From Halocalculus aciditolerans (GTDB taxonomy: Archaea; Halobacteriota; Halobacteria; Halobacteriales; Halobacteriaceae): a DNA stretch of 64,000 nt. The stretch is from the NCBI RefSeq assembly GCF_014647475.1, contig NZ_BMPG01000002.1, positions 682,001 to 746,000 of the forward strand, read 5' to 3'. The notes under the pieces were generated by a model that saw only the letters and a program-made list of their open reading frames with translations, ran no database searches and was not told the origin of the DNA. Both the position numbers and the translations under genes were made by a program. Within the stretch, counting starts at the first letter, position 1; every line of letters starts with the position of its first letter. Shown here in pieces: positions 9,711 through 61,229 of the stretch.

Positions 9711-9855
9711 GGGCGAACAGGCGGCAGACCGCTCCCGGACCGCGTGCCGCACGACCGCTGACGGCCCGGGGCGCTACTCACGTCACGGGGCAGGTTCGCC
9801 GCGCTATCGCACTTGAAGGCTCGGACGGCTATAGAGCAGAAACAGAATACTGCAA
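9711..9855. other. Spacer without recognised gene
   Basis: 145 bp after the ATPase gene. I see no start with coding character, no clear promoter and no repeat except the beginning of the structured element that starts near 9856. Confidence 0.5.
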
Positions 9856-10016
9856 GCATTCGGCGACCGAGCGGTCCGTCAGGACCCGGTAGGTCGCCGA
9901 TTCACTCGCGACGAAGTCGCGAGGCCCAAGCGCGACCAAAGGGAGCGCGCAGGGCTTTTCTCGTAGCTTTTGCTGCGCTTGACCGCGCGAAGCGCGGTCA
10001 AGCGCAGCAAAAGGTA
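9856..10016 (-). repeat. Structured downstream element, copy E
   Basis: Read on the minus strand it begins directly after the stop codon of the PAC2 gene. It contains a perfect 22-bp stem with a 3-nt loop (arms 9967-9988 and 9992-10013), then the core aaaagctacgagaaaagc (minus strand, 9954-9971), a G/C-rich segment, and a tail gtgaatcggcgacctaccgg. Core and tail match the copy after korB (33048-33260). The stem could end PAC2 transcripts and those arriving from the ABC operon. Confidence 0.75.
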
Positions 10017-10763
10017 CTATTCGAACATCCGGAGCGGCTGGGCTTGGCTGGATTCTTCTTCGGCGGCTTGCTGCATGCGCTGGGCGAGTTTCTGTTTCTG
10101 TTCCTGGATTTCTTCGGCGGATTCGACGAGTTCGTCGGTGTCGACGGTGAGGTCGGTGATGGGTTCGATGCCGTTGTCGATGAGTTGCTTGGAGGCGGCG
10201 GGGTCGGGGAATTGGGGGTCGGCTTGGACGACGAGGCCGACGCTGTCGTGGTCGGTGAGGCTGGCTTGGTGGACGAGCGCGCCGGTCGGGCCGCCGATGA
10301 CGCCTTCTTCCGGTGGGAGGTCGACGTCGGCTTTTTCGAGGAGGTGGCGGGCGTCGCCGGTGGAGACGCCGAAGACTTCGGGGACGTGGCCGGGGTCTTC
10401 GGCCTGATGCGGGAGGCCGGAGAGGTAGAGGGGGGTCGCGCCGTATTCGTCGAGCCAGTCGGTGACGGCGGTGGCGAAGTCGTCGGCGGCGGTGCGGGAG
10501 ACGGGGACGTCGCTCTGGAGGGCGAGGACGTCGTGTTCTTCGCTGCCGTAGATGCGGACGGGCGGGTAGACGTCGGTTTCGCCTTCGCGGTAGACGGCGA
10601 CTTCGGGGAGGCCGTCGCAGTCGACGGAGGCGACGAGCGTCATGTCGAACTGGTCGACGATGTGGTCGGTGGCGATCTTGCCGACGAGGCCGACGCCGGG
10701 GAGGCCTTCGATGAGCGTGGGGTCGTCGAGGTCGAGTTCGTTTCGAACGCGGACGTTTGCCAT
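10017..10763 (-). CDS. PAC2 family (proteasome assembly chaperone-like) protein
   Basis: 248-aa PAC2 family protein. The start NELDLDDPTLIEGLPGVGLV is typical: PAC2 members carry an LIEGFPGVG-type motif near the N-terminus. The C-terminal ~40 residues form a Glu/Gln-rich helix (EEIQEQKQKLAQRMQQAAEE), probably a coiled coil. Eukaryotic PAC2 helps assemble the proteasome alpha ring; archaeal homologues bind proteasome or act as ATP-grasp partners, but their role is not settled. Followed directly by a structured repeat element. A separate gene starts divergently 112 bp upstream. Confidence 0.9.
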   Translation of the reverse strand: MANVRVRNELDLDDPTLIEGLPGVGLVGKIATDHIVDQFDMTLVASVDCDGLPEVAVYREGETDVYPPVRIYGSEEHDVLALQSDVPVSRTAADDFATAVTDWLDEYGATPLYLSGLPHQAEDPGHVPEVFGVSTGDARHLLEKADVDLPPEEGVIGGPTGALVHQASLTDHDSVGLVVQADPQFPDPAASKQLIDNGIEPITDLTVDTDELVESAEEIQEQKQKLAQRMQQAAEEESSQAQPLRMFE

Positions 10764-20393: not shown

Positions 20394-20575
20394 CCCACTT
20401 TTTCATTGTCGTTCGAAAGGCGCGAAGCGCCTTTCGTGATGACGAGAGACGGCTTCGCCGTCTCTCGAACCACGAGCGTCCTGACGGGCGCTCGATGAAA
20501 ACCTGGACTAAAAGCCTCCTCGCTCCCGTGCGCCCTTCGGGCGCGTGGTCGCTCGTCGGCCCGCGACTCACGGAG
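20394..20575 (+). repeat. Structured downstream element, copy A, with nested twin hairpin
   Basis: Starts directly after the dnaJ stop with cccactttttcattg. A twin-hairpin module occupies about 20409-20472. Then comes stem-loop gagcgtcctgacgggcgctc, the core aaaacctggactaaaagc (20498-20515), cctcctcgctcccgt, a stem-loop gcgcccttcgggcgc, and ggtcgctcgtcggcccg. Without the nested module it aligns almost base for base with copy B at 25207. In the first stem a T.G pair here replaces the C-G pair of copy B, so pairing is kept. Confidence 0.78.
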
Positions 20576-20816
20576 CTCGTCGCGGTGAACCACTCGGTTC
20601 GGGCTTTCCAAGCCGCTCACCTCGCGGATGTTCGCATCGTGGCTCGTCTGACCAGTGCTAGCTTGCGGCGGATTCACTCCTGGTGAAGCGTCAAAACTGT
20701 GCAGTCGTCGTGAACGTCGGACTCGCCGTCGACGGAGCCGGGTAGGGGTGAGGTGGCGGTGTGGTGAGTAGCAGGAGACCGGCGTCGTTTTCCCGGCCGT
20801 GGCCGAACGGTGGGGT
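20576..20816. other. Spacer upstream of the AMP-binding fragment gene
   Basis: About 240 bp. It holds the tail of the preceding element and an A/T-rich stretch cgtcgttttc (20783-20792) about 25-34 nt before the ATG at 20817, a possible promoter. No gene recognised. Confidence 0.45.
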
Positions 20817-25206: not shown

Positions 25207-25440
25207 CCCACTTTTTTATTGCGAGCGCCCTGACGGGCGCTCGATAAAAACCTGGACTAAAAGCCTCCTCGCTCCCGTCGCGGCCCAAAGGGCCGCGGTG
25301 GTCGCTCGTCGGCCCGAGCGCTCACGCTGTTCGCGCTCGGAGGTCACGCGAGCCGGGCGGGACCGGAGGTCCCGCTTGCCGTACGGGCGACTCACGGGTC
25401 GCCCGTACAACGACCGCAGGGAGCGAGCGTGACTCAACCG
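25207..25440 (+). repeat. Structured downstream element, copy B
   Basis: Begins directly after the stop of the alcohol dehydrogenase gene: cccacttttttattg, stem-loop cgagcgccctgacgggcgct, core aaaacctggactaaaagc (25247-25264), cctcctcgctcccgt, stem-loop gcggcccaaagggccgc, then ggtcgctcgtcggcccg. The 3' part has gcgggaccggaggtcccgc (hairpin), shared with copies C and D, and a further palindrome around 25383-25410. It is the simplest complete member of the family. Confidence 0.78.
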
Positions 25441-25520
25441 GAACTCGTTCCGGCGCTAAATCGCGGCACTTCCGGGCGCTGACGACCCGCTCGGTGCGCG
25501 AACGCTCGACGGTGGTTGTG

Positions 25521-33047: not shown

Positions 33048-33260
33048 CGCACGTTTTGCTCTGCGCTCGGCGCGCTTCGCGCGCCGTCGCTCGGCAAAAC
33101 CTGCACTAAAAGCCCATCGCGCTCCTGTCGCGCGCCTCCGGCGCGCGGTAGTCGCGCTCGGGCCTCGCCCTACGGGCGAGTGAACCGGCGAACTACCGGG
33201 TTCTTGGCGGGACCTTCGGTCCCGCTTGCCCGCACTCGCTTCGCTCGCGCGGACTCCGGA
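33048..33260 (+). repeat. Structured downstream element, copy C
   Basis: Begins right after the korB stop: cgcacgttttgctctgcgct, inner stem ggcgcgcttcgcgcgcc, outer arms gttttgc / gcaaaac, core caaaacctgcactaaaagcc (33094-33113), then catcgcgctcctgtc and stem-loop gcgcgcctccggcgcgc, a tcgccctacgggcga hairpin, and the tail gtgaaccggcgaactaccgg, ttcttggcgggaccttcggt, cccgcttgcccgcactcgct. The core and tail match copies D and E. Confidence 0.78.
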
Positions 33261-33392
33261 CCACTCGTCCGCCGGACATCTCTTGCGGTTCTTCCTCTCT
33301 CGGCACGCGTCCCTACTTCTCGGTCGATGCGCGCGGCGTCGCGCGTTCGCGTTCGGGGGAACAGTTACCTGTCTCTCGTCCCGTGTCCGGGT
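33261..33392. other. Spacer upstream of the 57-aa membrane protein
   Basis: 132 bp with no gene recognised; it includes an A/T-rich stretch (gttacctg, 33364-33371) about 25 nt before the ATG at 33393 that could act as a promoter element. Confidence 0.4.
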
Positions 33393-47197: not shown

Positions 47198-47968
47198 TTA
47201 TTCGAAGTCGGGGTCGCGGTCGTCGAGGAAGGCCTGCATGCCTTCGCGCTGGTCGTGGGTGCCGAAGAGGGACGCCCACGTGCGGCGTTCGAAGTCGAGG
47301 CCTGCGCCGAGGTCGGTTTCGTGGCTCTGGTTGATGGCTTCCTTCGCGGCGGCGAGCGCGAAGCGCGGCTGGTCGGCGAGGTCGCTGGCGAGCGCGGCGA
47401 CGTGCTCGTCGAGTTCGTCGTGCGCGACGACGTCGCCGACGAGGCCGTACTCGTGGGCGTCTTGGGCGTCGAGGCGGTCGCCGAAGTAGATGAGGCGGCG
47501 GGCGACTTCGTCGCCGACGAGGCGGGGGAGGCGCTGCGTGCCGCCCCAGCCGGGGATGATGCCGAGGTCGATTTCGGTCTGCCCGATGATGGCGCGTTCG
47601 CTGGCGACGCGGAGGTCGCAGGCGAGCGCGATTTCGCAGCCGCCGCCGAACGCGTAGCCGTTGATGGCGGCGATGACGGGCGCGGGGAAGGCCTCTAAGT
47701 CCGTCGTGATGTCGTGGCCGAGTTTCGCGTACTCGTGGGCCTCCGTGGTGCTCATCGACTGCATGTGGGAGATGTCCGCGCCGGCGATGAACGCCTTGTC
47801 GCCCGCGCCGGTGACGACGAGCGCGTTGGGTTCGGCGTCGGCGGCGTCGGCGATGGCGGTGCGGAGCGCTTCGAGCGTCGGGCGGTTGAGCGCGTTCAGG
47901 CGGTCCGGTCGGTTCACCGTGATGGTCGCGACGTCGTCCTCGACGGCGAGTTGAATCGTCTCTGCCAT
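47198..47968 (-). CDS. Enoyl-CoA hydratase/isomerase family protein
   Basis: 256-aa crotonase-fold protein. Oxyanion-hole regions are KAFIAGADISHMQSM and INGYAFGGGCEIALACD; the catalytic Glu region GQTEIDLGIIPGWGGTQRLP matches hydratases with both Glu residues kept. It adds water to 2-enoyl-CoA in fatty acid breakdown. Length normal. Start at ATG 47968 (MAETIQLAVEDDVAT). Neighbours do not form a beta-oxidation operon. Confidence 0.9.
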   Translation of the reverse strand: MAETIQLAVEDDVATITVNRPDRLNALNRPTLEALRTAIADAADAEPNALVVTGAGDKAFIAGADISHMQSMSTTEAHEYAKLGHDITTDLEAFPAPVIAAINGYAFGGGCEIALACDLRVASERAIIGQTEIDLGIIPGWGGTQRLPRLVGDEVARRLIYFGDRLDAQDAHEYGLVGDVVAHDELDEHVAALASDLADQPRFALAAAKEAINQSHETDLGAGLDFERRTWASLFGTHDQREGMQAFLDDRDPDFE

Positions 47969-59890: not shown

Positions 59891-60059
59891 GCCGCGCTCC
59901 CGCCTCGGCCGCACCCGACCGCTCACTAACGCATACGCCGCGTTCGCCGCGCCTTCCCAGATAAAGTCTCGTGCGGCACTGAGACCACAATCCGCCTCGG
60001 CCGTCTGTGGGCGAGCGCACAAAGCTGAGAGAATCAACCACAACGAGCATCCGCGAGCG

Positions 60060-60257
60060 AACGGTTCGAAGTCCGCGCGAACGGAGTGAGTGCGGGCAAG
60101 CGGGACCGGAGGTCCCGCCAAGAACCTGAGCGAGCGGTTCACCGAGCGCGAAGCGCTCGGGCCGACGACTGAACGGAGCGAAGCGGAGTGACGGAGGAGT
60201 GCTTTTAGCGTAGCTTTTCCCGAGCGCCGGCTTCGCCGGCGCGCAGCGCAAAAGGTA
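60060..60257 (-). repeat. Structured downstream element, copy D
   Basis: Read on the minus strand it begins directly after the stop of the PP-loop gene at 60258. Order: a stem with cttttgcgctgcgcgccggc and gccggcgctcgggaaaag arms, core aaaagctacgctaaaagc (60201-60218), cactcctccgtc, stem-loop tccgcttcgctccg, gtcgtcggcccgagcgcttc, then gtgaaccgctcgctcaggtt and the hairpin gcgggaccggaggtcccgc. The tail matches copy C. Confidence 0.76.
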
Positions 60258-61229
60258 CTACATGTAGCCGAGGTCGCGGAGGCGCTCCATGAGGTCCTCT
60301 TTGTCCTGGGCGCGGCCGGCGCGTTCGGTGGTTTCGTCGAGATTCTGGAGCCAGGCGGGCTCCTCGTCGGCTTTCGTGGTGCTGACCTCGGAGCCGAGGG
60401 AACGGAACCCCTCGAAGTACTTGGGCGAGACGGGGATGTCTTCGTGGGTGAGGTCGTTGGGGAGGTCGTCGTAGGACTGAGGGACGTAGCCGTCCTCGGG
60501 GAAGCCCTCGACGGTATCGGGAACGACGTAGTACCAGAAGGCCTCCCAGACGGCGGCTTCGTCGAACTGGAGGATCGGCTGGATGCGGTCGTGTGGCGGG
60601 TAGATTTCGGGGTCGTGGCGCGGACTGAAGAAGGTCTCATCCGCTCTCGCGTCCTGTTCGTCCCAGCGAATGCCGCTGAGGATGCCGTCGACGTCGTACT
60701 CTTCGAGGGCGTTGTTGAGGGCGACGGTCTTCAGGAGGTGATTCCCGACGTAGGTGTCGAGGAGGAAGGGGAAGGAGTCCTCTTCGTACTCGAGGAGGTC
60801 GCGGACGTGGTGTTGGTTCTGCTCGTTGAGGGCGTCGATAGGGATGTCGTCGCCTGGTTCGAGGTCGTTCGCCTCGACGTACCGGCCGACGTCGTCGTTG
60901 CGAGCGTAGACGAGGTCGAGGTCCCACTCGTCGGCCCACTTCTCGGCGAAGTCGATGAGGTCGTCGAAGTGCTGGTAGTGGTCGATGAAGATGGCGGGCG
61001 GCATCTCCAGGTCGAACTGCTCGGCGACCTCCTTCACGAAGTAGAGGGTGAGCGTCGAGTCCTTCCCGCCCGTCCACATAATCGCGGGGTTCTCGTACTC
61101 TTCGAGGCCGGTGCGGGTGACCTCGATGGCTTTCTCGATCTTGTCGTTCAGCGACGGGTAGTCCTCGGGGGTCTCGCCTTCGCCGTCGGTGTAGTCGACG
61201 TCGAGGTAGTCGGGGAATCCCTCTGGCAT
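60258..61229 (-). CDS. PP-loop (PAPS reductase/CysD-like) protein without cysteine
   Basis: 323-aa adenine-nucleotide alpha-hydrolase-like enzyme. The PP-loop is MWTGGKDSTLTLYFVKEVAE (SGGKDS-type). A second part SGIRWDEQDARADETFFSPR resembles the CysD/PAPS-reductase substrate region. The chain has no Cys at all, so the catalytic ECGxH cysteine of APS/PAPS reductases is absent and reductase activity is unlikely; an ATP-sulfurylase-like adenylation is possible. Many annotations call this phosphoadenosine phosphosulfate reductase. A structured element follows its stop. Confidence 0.82.
   Translation of the reverse strand: MPEGFPDYLDVDYTDGEGETPEDYPSLNDKIEKAIEVTRTGLEEYENPAIMWTGGKDSTLTLYFVKEVAEQFDLEMPPAIFIDHYQHFDDLIDFAEKWADEWDLDLVYARNDDVGRYVEANDLEPGDDIPIDALNEQNQHHVRDLLEYEEDSFPFLLDTYVGNHLLKTVALNNALEEYDVDGILSGIRWDEQDARADETFFSPRHDPEIYPPHDRIQPILQFDEAAVWEAFWYYVVPDTVEGFPEDGYVPQSYDDLPNDLTHEDIPVSPKYFEGFRSLGSEVSTTKADEEPAWLQNLDETTERAGRAQDKEDLMERLRDLGYM

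Follow-up and report, generated by a model that had tools for sequence, protein, structure and literature searches.

What is the run of palindromes that directly follows the stop codon of a zinc alcohol dehydrogenase gene (adh) in Halocalculus aciditolerans, and why do its relatives stand behind four other genes close by? The first-pass annotation of the window, the whole 64,000-nucleotide stretch of DNA analysed here, had grouped five such sequences into one family and offered two explanations: an RNA element acting at the 3' end, or a mobile unit that targets gene ends. These alternatives are not mutually exclusive, and our sequence comparisons point to a probable transcript-end signal that is ready-made, slowly mobile, and positioned at gene 3' ends.

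Architecture of the element and its copies in the window

The element is non-coding, about 160 nt long, and composed of four hairpins, P1–P4, together with a triplet helix, P0. In gene sense, 0–5 bases rich in A and C separate the stop codon from an NNA triplet, which is followed by a single C, a T4–5 tract, and hairpin P1; after P1 come an A4–5 tract, a second C mismatched to the first, the bases that pair with the triplet to form P0, and NNNAAAAGC. P2 is closed by GC...GC and carries the inner arrangement NN-U-CC...GG-UC-N'N'. The 3' part consists of hairpin P3, the segment GTGAA, and P4, whose stem of about 9 bp leads through a YACCG/RCTC internal loop to a further 5 bp and a short loop; the element ends near ATGCTCG. 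Two segments, the AAAAGC joint and GTGAA, are conserved and unpaired in the alignment. An unpaired reading of the mirror-like P2 linkers was dropped, as they resolve into GC/GC, U/UC, and CC/GG pairs.

An initial MAFFT alignment with RNAalifold recovered only 11 pairs because the hairpins vary in length; therefore, a hand-trimmed alignment of 11 copies was used to build a covariance model, R1. The five copies proposed in the window are all real, with R1 scores of 56–120 bits against 12 bits for the best independent match outside these copies and the detached P4 of the adh copy. The core CTAAAAGC occurs four times in the window against 0.17 expected, and none of 100 shuffles reached four. Pfam assigns the host genes to PAC2, DnaJ, zinc alcohol dehydrogenase, korB, and a PAPS-reductase/PP-loop-fold protein, and all five copies run from the stop codon in the direction of the gene, as had been claimed from the sequence.

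The simplest copy, after the PAC2 gene (9853–10017, minus strand; R1 120 bits), shares the G of the TAG stop as the first base of its P0 (GUA:UAC), followed by a perfect 22-bp P1 and then P2, P3, and P4. Its predicted RNA fold reproduces the consensus structure of the model with z = -11; the opposite strand folds as well as the gene strand. The dnaJ copy (20395–20634, plus strand; stop TAA; R1 75 bits for 20470–20634) has its P1 broken up by a nested 73-bp double hairpin. In the adh copy (25208–25508, plus strand; stop TAA), R1 matches two parts, 25208–25352 with 56 bits and 25381–25508 with 27 bits, corresponding to P0–P3 at 25208–25335 and a P4 at about 25455–25508. Here, P0 and P1 (25208–25255, plus strand) read CCA-C-TTTTTTATTGCGAGC...GCTCGATAAAAA-CC-TGG, with the T-tract 5–6 nt downstream of the stop, and are followed by the joint ACTAAAAGC and P2 (25256–25315, plus strand), the latter showing GCC...GGC, an inner CC...GG, and the U/UC internal loop in the sequence and alignment. 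The remaining two copies, after korB, the gene for a TPP-binding oxidoreductase beta subunit (33049–33282, plus strand; stop TAA; R1 84 bits), and after the PP-loop/PAPS-reductase-fold gene (60044–60258, minus strand; stop TAG, its G shared with the element; R1 69 bits), each have P4 split by a nested 56-bp double hairpin. Thus, the shared structured family proposed at first stands, but the adh, dnaJ, korB, and PP-loop copies are longer than had been given, and P4, the conserved fourth hairpin, had gone undescribed as a unit. The same holds for the C.C mismatch beside P0 and for the P0 triplet helix, which changes on both sides (GCA:TGC, CCA:TGG, GTA:TAC).

Smaller units are nested within several copies. 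Type a is a 56-bp double hairpin, GCGGGACC..GGTCCCGCTTGCCCGCACTCGC..GCGCGGACTC, found inside the P4 loop of the korB copy (33207–33262, plus strand) and the PP-loop copy (60063–60118, minus strand); about 10 distinct copies occur in the loci examined, including a GTCGGAGC.. variant in P2 loops. Type b, the double hairpin GTCGTTCGAAAGG...GATGACGAGAGACGG...GAACCACGA, lies in P1 of the dnaJ copy (20405–20477, plus strand) and recurs in P1 of other copies, at locus L010 of the same genome and in a related form at L396. The adh copy contains an insert of about 110 bp between P3 and P4 (25336–25450) with further palindromes, GGGACCGGAGGTCCC and GTACGGGCGACTCACGGGTCGCCCGTAC.

The claim that the stems differ in sequence yet still pair was borne out by covariation far above the controls. 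Across 111 distinct aligned copies from several genera, standard pairs fill 94% of pair cells (71% when shuffled), and 846 cells show changes on both sides (286 when shuffled); covariation scores 0.468, compared with 0.139 for shuffled and at most 0.067 for slid alignments. These values come from an alignment that was fitted to the model and hence leans toward it, a concern limited by the slid controls and by a class-wide alignment with a score of 0.178 against 0.058 in the control. P0 pairs in 98% and P1 in 94% of the 111 copies, and the P0 triplet takes the forms GCA:TGC, CCA:TGG, GTA:TAC, CGA:TCG, GGA:TCC, and GAA:TTC.

Placement at gene 3' ends and distribution across haloarchaea

To place the copies relative to genes, we considered same-strand ORFs of at least 70 codons, with shifted positions as the control. 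In three genomes (the source genome G000, G017, and G013), 77 of 111 copies start between -12 and +6 nt from an ORF stop, mostly between -4 and +2, against about 6% at shifted positions. Of 43 copies from a pattern scan, mostly in other families, 22 start likewise at an ORF stop (control 9%), so the copies in other genomes are far from randomly placed relative to stop codons. Convergent neighbouring genes may bear one copy each, head to head.

Not all host genes are coding. Among the copies away from an ORF stop, one lies 2 nt downstream of a tRNA-Leu gene, one copy follows a tRNA in three Halobacterium species (G017, G018, and G019), and in genome G015 the element begins at 47919, 4 nt downstream of the RNase P RNA gene (C165:47589–47915). 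The copies are therefore united by a place at the 3' ends of transcribed genes and not by the translation stop: position and orientation at gene ends are supported in the three genomes and class-wide, but placement "after stop codons" was too narrow a description. This bears directly on whether the element could be translation-linked, acting at the stop codon like the REPs of Escherichia coli, which stall ribosomes when they lie no more than 15 nt from a stop (PMC12306157). Although its start a few nucleotides from the stop and the REP precedent would fit such a role, the copies directly behind genes for tRNA and RNase P RNA, where no stop codon exists, largely refute it, and we regard it as highly improbable.

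In Natrialbaceae, several copies (L255 ~1956, L265 ~1974, L292 ~7548, L304 ~1737, L305 ~7479, L314 ~168, and L317 ~1091) follow a recurring sequence like GGTTCGGTAACTACGCGTGC instead of a stop codon. No tRNA was predicted at these sites; the sequence may be a different repeat, or the 3' terminus of a non-coding RNA that has not been described.

A search of haloarchaeal genomes with covariance models, the check proposed at the outset, found copies class-wide with covariation above background. The source genome (3.38 Mb) holds 52 R1 matches at E ≤ 1, about 44 of them below 1e-6, and 23 of the 25 family relatives searched carry 5–42 copies each. With a second model, at least 199 of 292 genomes and at least 58 of 76 genera in the class possess at least one copy, counts that are lower bounds as 10 candidates per genome were scored. 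A pattern scan of all GTDB species gave haloarchaea and two evident chance matches among the matches listed. Neither viral contigs, searched with the core pattern, nor plasmids and phages, searched with element DNA, yielded a match. The 43 copies of genome G017 are confined to its main chromosome contig, leaving three further contigs free of the element. Rfam 15 gave no match at the gathering threshold in the window, and the open-access literature that we searched, a partial sample and thus no proof of absence, contains no description of the element.

Retention, turnover, and gain

The element is retained at particular genes to a degree well above expectation: G000 shares about 9 element-bearing genes with G017 and about 7 with G013, where about 0.5 would be expected. 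It is kept across genera or families at the thermosome, PAC2, korB, dnaJ, and PP-loop genes; at the first two of these, copies also occur in other families. Within a 46-kb block compared among five Halobacterium species, most element loci are held in common. At such shared loci, the genes are about 89–97% identical, whereas P0, P1, P2, and P3 can be wholly different or mosaic between sister species; the mosaic hairpins suggest exchange of hairpins between copies. One tRNA-linked copy survives only as a 3' remnant in two species, and lineage-specific subfamilies of the element are seen.

The clearest case of gain is found where a succinylglutamate desuccinylase/aspartoacylase-like gene meets thrC. 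The two genes overlap or nearly abut, with no element, in six other genera and in Halobacterium G010, G019, and G024; in Halobacterium G016, G020, and G022, they are separated by a short spacer with a conserved leader, again with no element; and in Halobacterium G017, G018, G021, and G023, a full element runs from the stop codon and is followed by the same leader. We infer a gain at the stop codon, the direction resting on parsimony, although horizontal transfer of an allele within the genus may have mimicked an insertion. No target duplication is visible at this junction, where the flanks have diverged. A second insertion-like locus (G023 17381) was left out since its flank is a partial duplication of a gene end. 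The evidence for mobility comprises a single clear gain, with neither a target duplication nor a transposase identified; together with the lineage-specific subfamilies and mosaic hairpins, it supports the mobile-unit explanation of the first-pass annotation.

The last two codons and the stop of the desuccinylase gene vary with the element subtype, reading GACAAATACTAAACAC versus GATTCATTCTAACCCAC (G021 and G023 against G017 and G018), as if the exchanged unit extended a few bases into the gene.

RNA and DNA signatures and the likely role of the element

We examined whether the conserved pairing behaves as expected of RNA or of DNA. At the T-tract (alignment columns 8–11, four pairs), T:A fills 398 of about 425 cells and A:T only 7. 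The tract is thus strand-specific while P0 changes freely on both sides, which is the signal expected of an archaeal U-tract terminator. Wobble pairs give a different picture: G.T (52 cells) and A.C (36 cells) are about equally rare, with no significant preference (p = 0.11 against 1:1), whereas the RNase P RNAs of 20 genomes in this family have 57 G.T against 9 A.C (Fisher p = 0.0003 versus the element), a comparison in which the RNase P wobbles may come from a few conserved positions and the element alignment was fitted to the model. The apical loops on the gene strand are likewise skewed, with 195 of the form C(TN1-2C)G against 40 of the form C(GN1-2A)G, compared with 41 and 27 in upstream coding DNA. 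Read on the bottom strand, the former are C(GNA)G or C(GNNA)G, a family of extraordinarily stable DNA mini-hairpins (PMC4686876). Taken with their limited controls, these compositional biases are suggestive of hairpins maintained at the DNA level, in the bottom strand. An interpretation of the apical loops as UNCG RNA tetraloops was rejected on register and on the misfit of the 4-nt variants (TGAC, TAAC, and TACC).

These signatures weaken a purely RNA-level structure. As a cis-acting structured 3'-UTR RNA, the element would act through protein binding, stability, or processing after transcription through its whole length, its copies having arisen by duplication. The gene orientation and stop-adjacent start, the complex internal loops (C.C, U/UC) with massive covariation, the conserved unpaired AAAAGC joint and GTGAA within a stable fold, and the retention at the same genes all speak for this. 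Yet G.T scarcely exceeds A.C, against about 6:1 in the family's RNase P RNA; folding is just as good on the opposite strand; the loop bias is not known to match any stable RNA loop type; and the U-tract should end much of the RNA ahead of the structure. RNA ending at the T-tract would leave the remainder untranscribed, so its conservation requires either read-through or a role as DNA. We consider an exclusively RNA-based function doubtful. The 3'-end RNA element proposed originally therefore survives in part, supported by the strand-specific U-tract and the placement at gene 3' ends but not by the absent wobble bias and DNA-type loops.

Among known dispersed palindromes, REP/BIME sequences resemble the element in being extragenic and often near gene 3' ends; however, they are 20–40 bp palindromes with no fixed gene orientation, bearing a GTAG/CGTC tag and a RAYT partner, and were excluded on size and architecture against an element of about 160 nt with four different hairpins in one orientation. 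The attC sites of integron cassettes also follow stop codons in gene orientation, their bottom strand folding as single-stranded DNA, but each is one imperfect hairpin with RYYYAAC...GTTRRRY ends. The element, which lies at ordinary chromosomal genes and has four hairpins and no 3' GTTRRRY, was by inspection not assigned to them. A bacterial-type intrinsic terminator, in which a hairpin precedes a T run, was also rejected, as here the T-tract precedes the hairpin and an A-tract follows it.

By form, the nearest known relatives are the PATEs of Haloquadratum walsbyi, palindrome-associated transposable elements whose ends are related to IS605-type transposons and into which SMR-A units insert (PMC3119063). 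Both are non-coding haloarchaeal repeats with near-terminal palindromes and nested smaller units, and inspection of the element's copies, like the description of PATEs, revealed no terminal inverted repeats. PATEs insert without target duplication; for the element, none is visible at the one gained junction, with its diverged flanks. The element differs in having four hairpins and a U-tract, in lying at gene ends, and in being retained at fixed genes throughout the class; the literature searched holds no report of PATE placement or orientation at gene ends. One could accordingly ask whether the element is simply a selfish repeat that transposes as single-stranded DNA in the PATE/IS605 manner, its position reflecting target choice or survival with no host function. 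The near-terminal hairpins, the lack of visible terminal inverted repeats and target duplication, the lineage-specific subfamilies, the bottom-strand loop signature, and the units nested in palindromes, as SMR-A in PATEs (PMC3119063), would all be expected of it. Against it stand the persistence of the element at particular genes in different genera and families, its few copies per genome, and the lack of matches in plasmids, phages, or viral contigs, and we judge this account unlikely.

In its likely action, the element resembles archaeal U-tract terminators. Archaeal terminators use U4 or longer (PMC8716108), and intergenic termination sites in Haloferax carry a T stretch (PMC7237163); the element has such a tract directly 3' of the gene and strand-specific, as in aCPSF1-dependent terminators (PMC8716108, PMC7237163). 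Ordinary archaeal terminators need no conserved hairpin (PMC8716108, PMC7237163), whereas the U-tract of the element is built into a stem as its 5' arm, with about 150 nt of conserved structure behind it.

We give about even odds (roughly 0.5) to the reading that these sequences are slowly mobile, non-coding palindromic DNA elements with a putative U-tract terminator, occupying the 3' ends of transcription units. A transcript would meet the U4–5 tract about 5–12 nt past the last base of the gene, be it an ORF, a tRNA, or RNase P RNA, and termination or cleavage would follow at this point, with the aCPSF1/FttA route as the probable means, while P1–P4 might serve as a barrier to RNA polymerase or as a 3'-end stabiliser for read-through RNA. 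Spread as DNA would be rare and probably proceed via a folded single-stranded (bottom-strand) intermediate, with insertions retained where the gene end tolerates or profits from a terminator and hairpins swapped between copies by gene conversion. More tentatively, the family may constitute a mobile terminator in the full sense: a non-autonomous unit, mobile in the form of a folded single strand, with the 3' ends of coding and non-coding transcription units as its specific insertion sites. It would supply or renew their termination signal and would have been maintained for the age of Halobacteria, its hairpins continually replaced but their pairing kept.

Of the genomes sampled from this well-studied class, about two thirds carry a family that has no Rfam entry. 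Its strongly covarying structure appears to follow DNA-like and not RNA-like rules, which makes the question of RNA or DNA directly testable. If the favoured reading is true, the gene ends of haloarchaea would be partly furnished by a common dispersed module, and the family would offer a natural test bed for archaeal termination and for how a mobile sequence settles at gene 3' ends without breaking genes.
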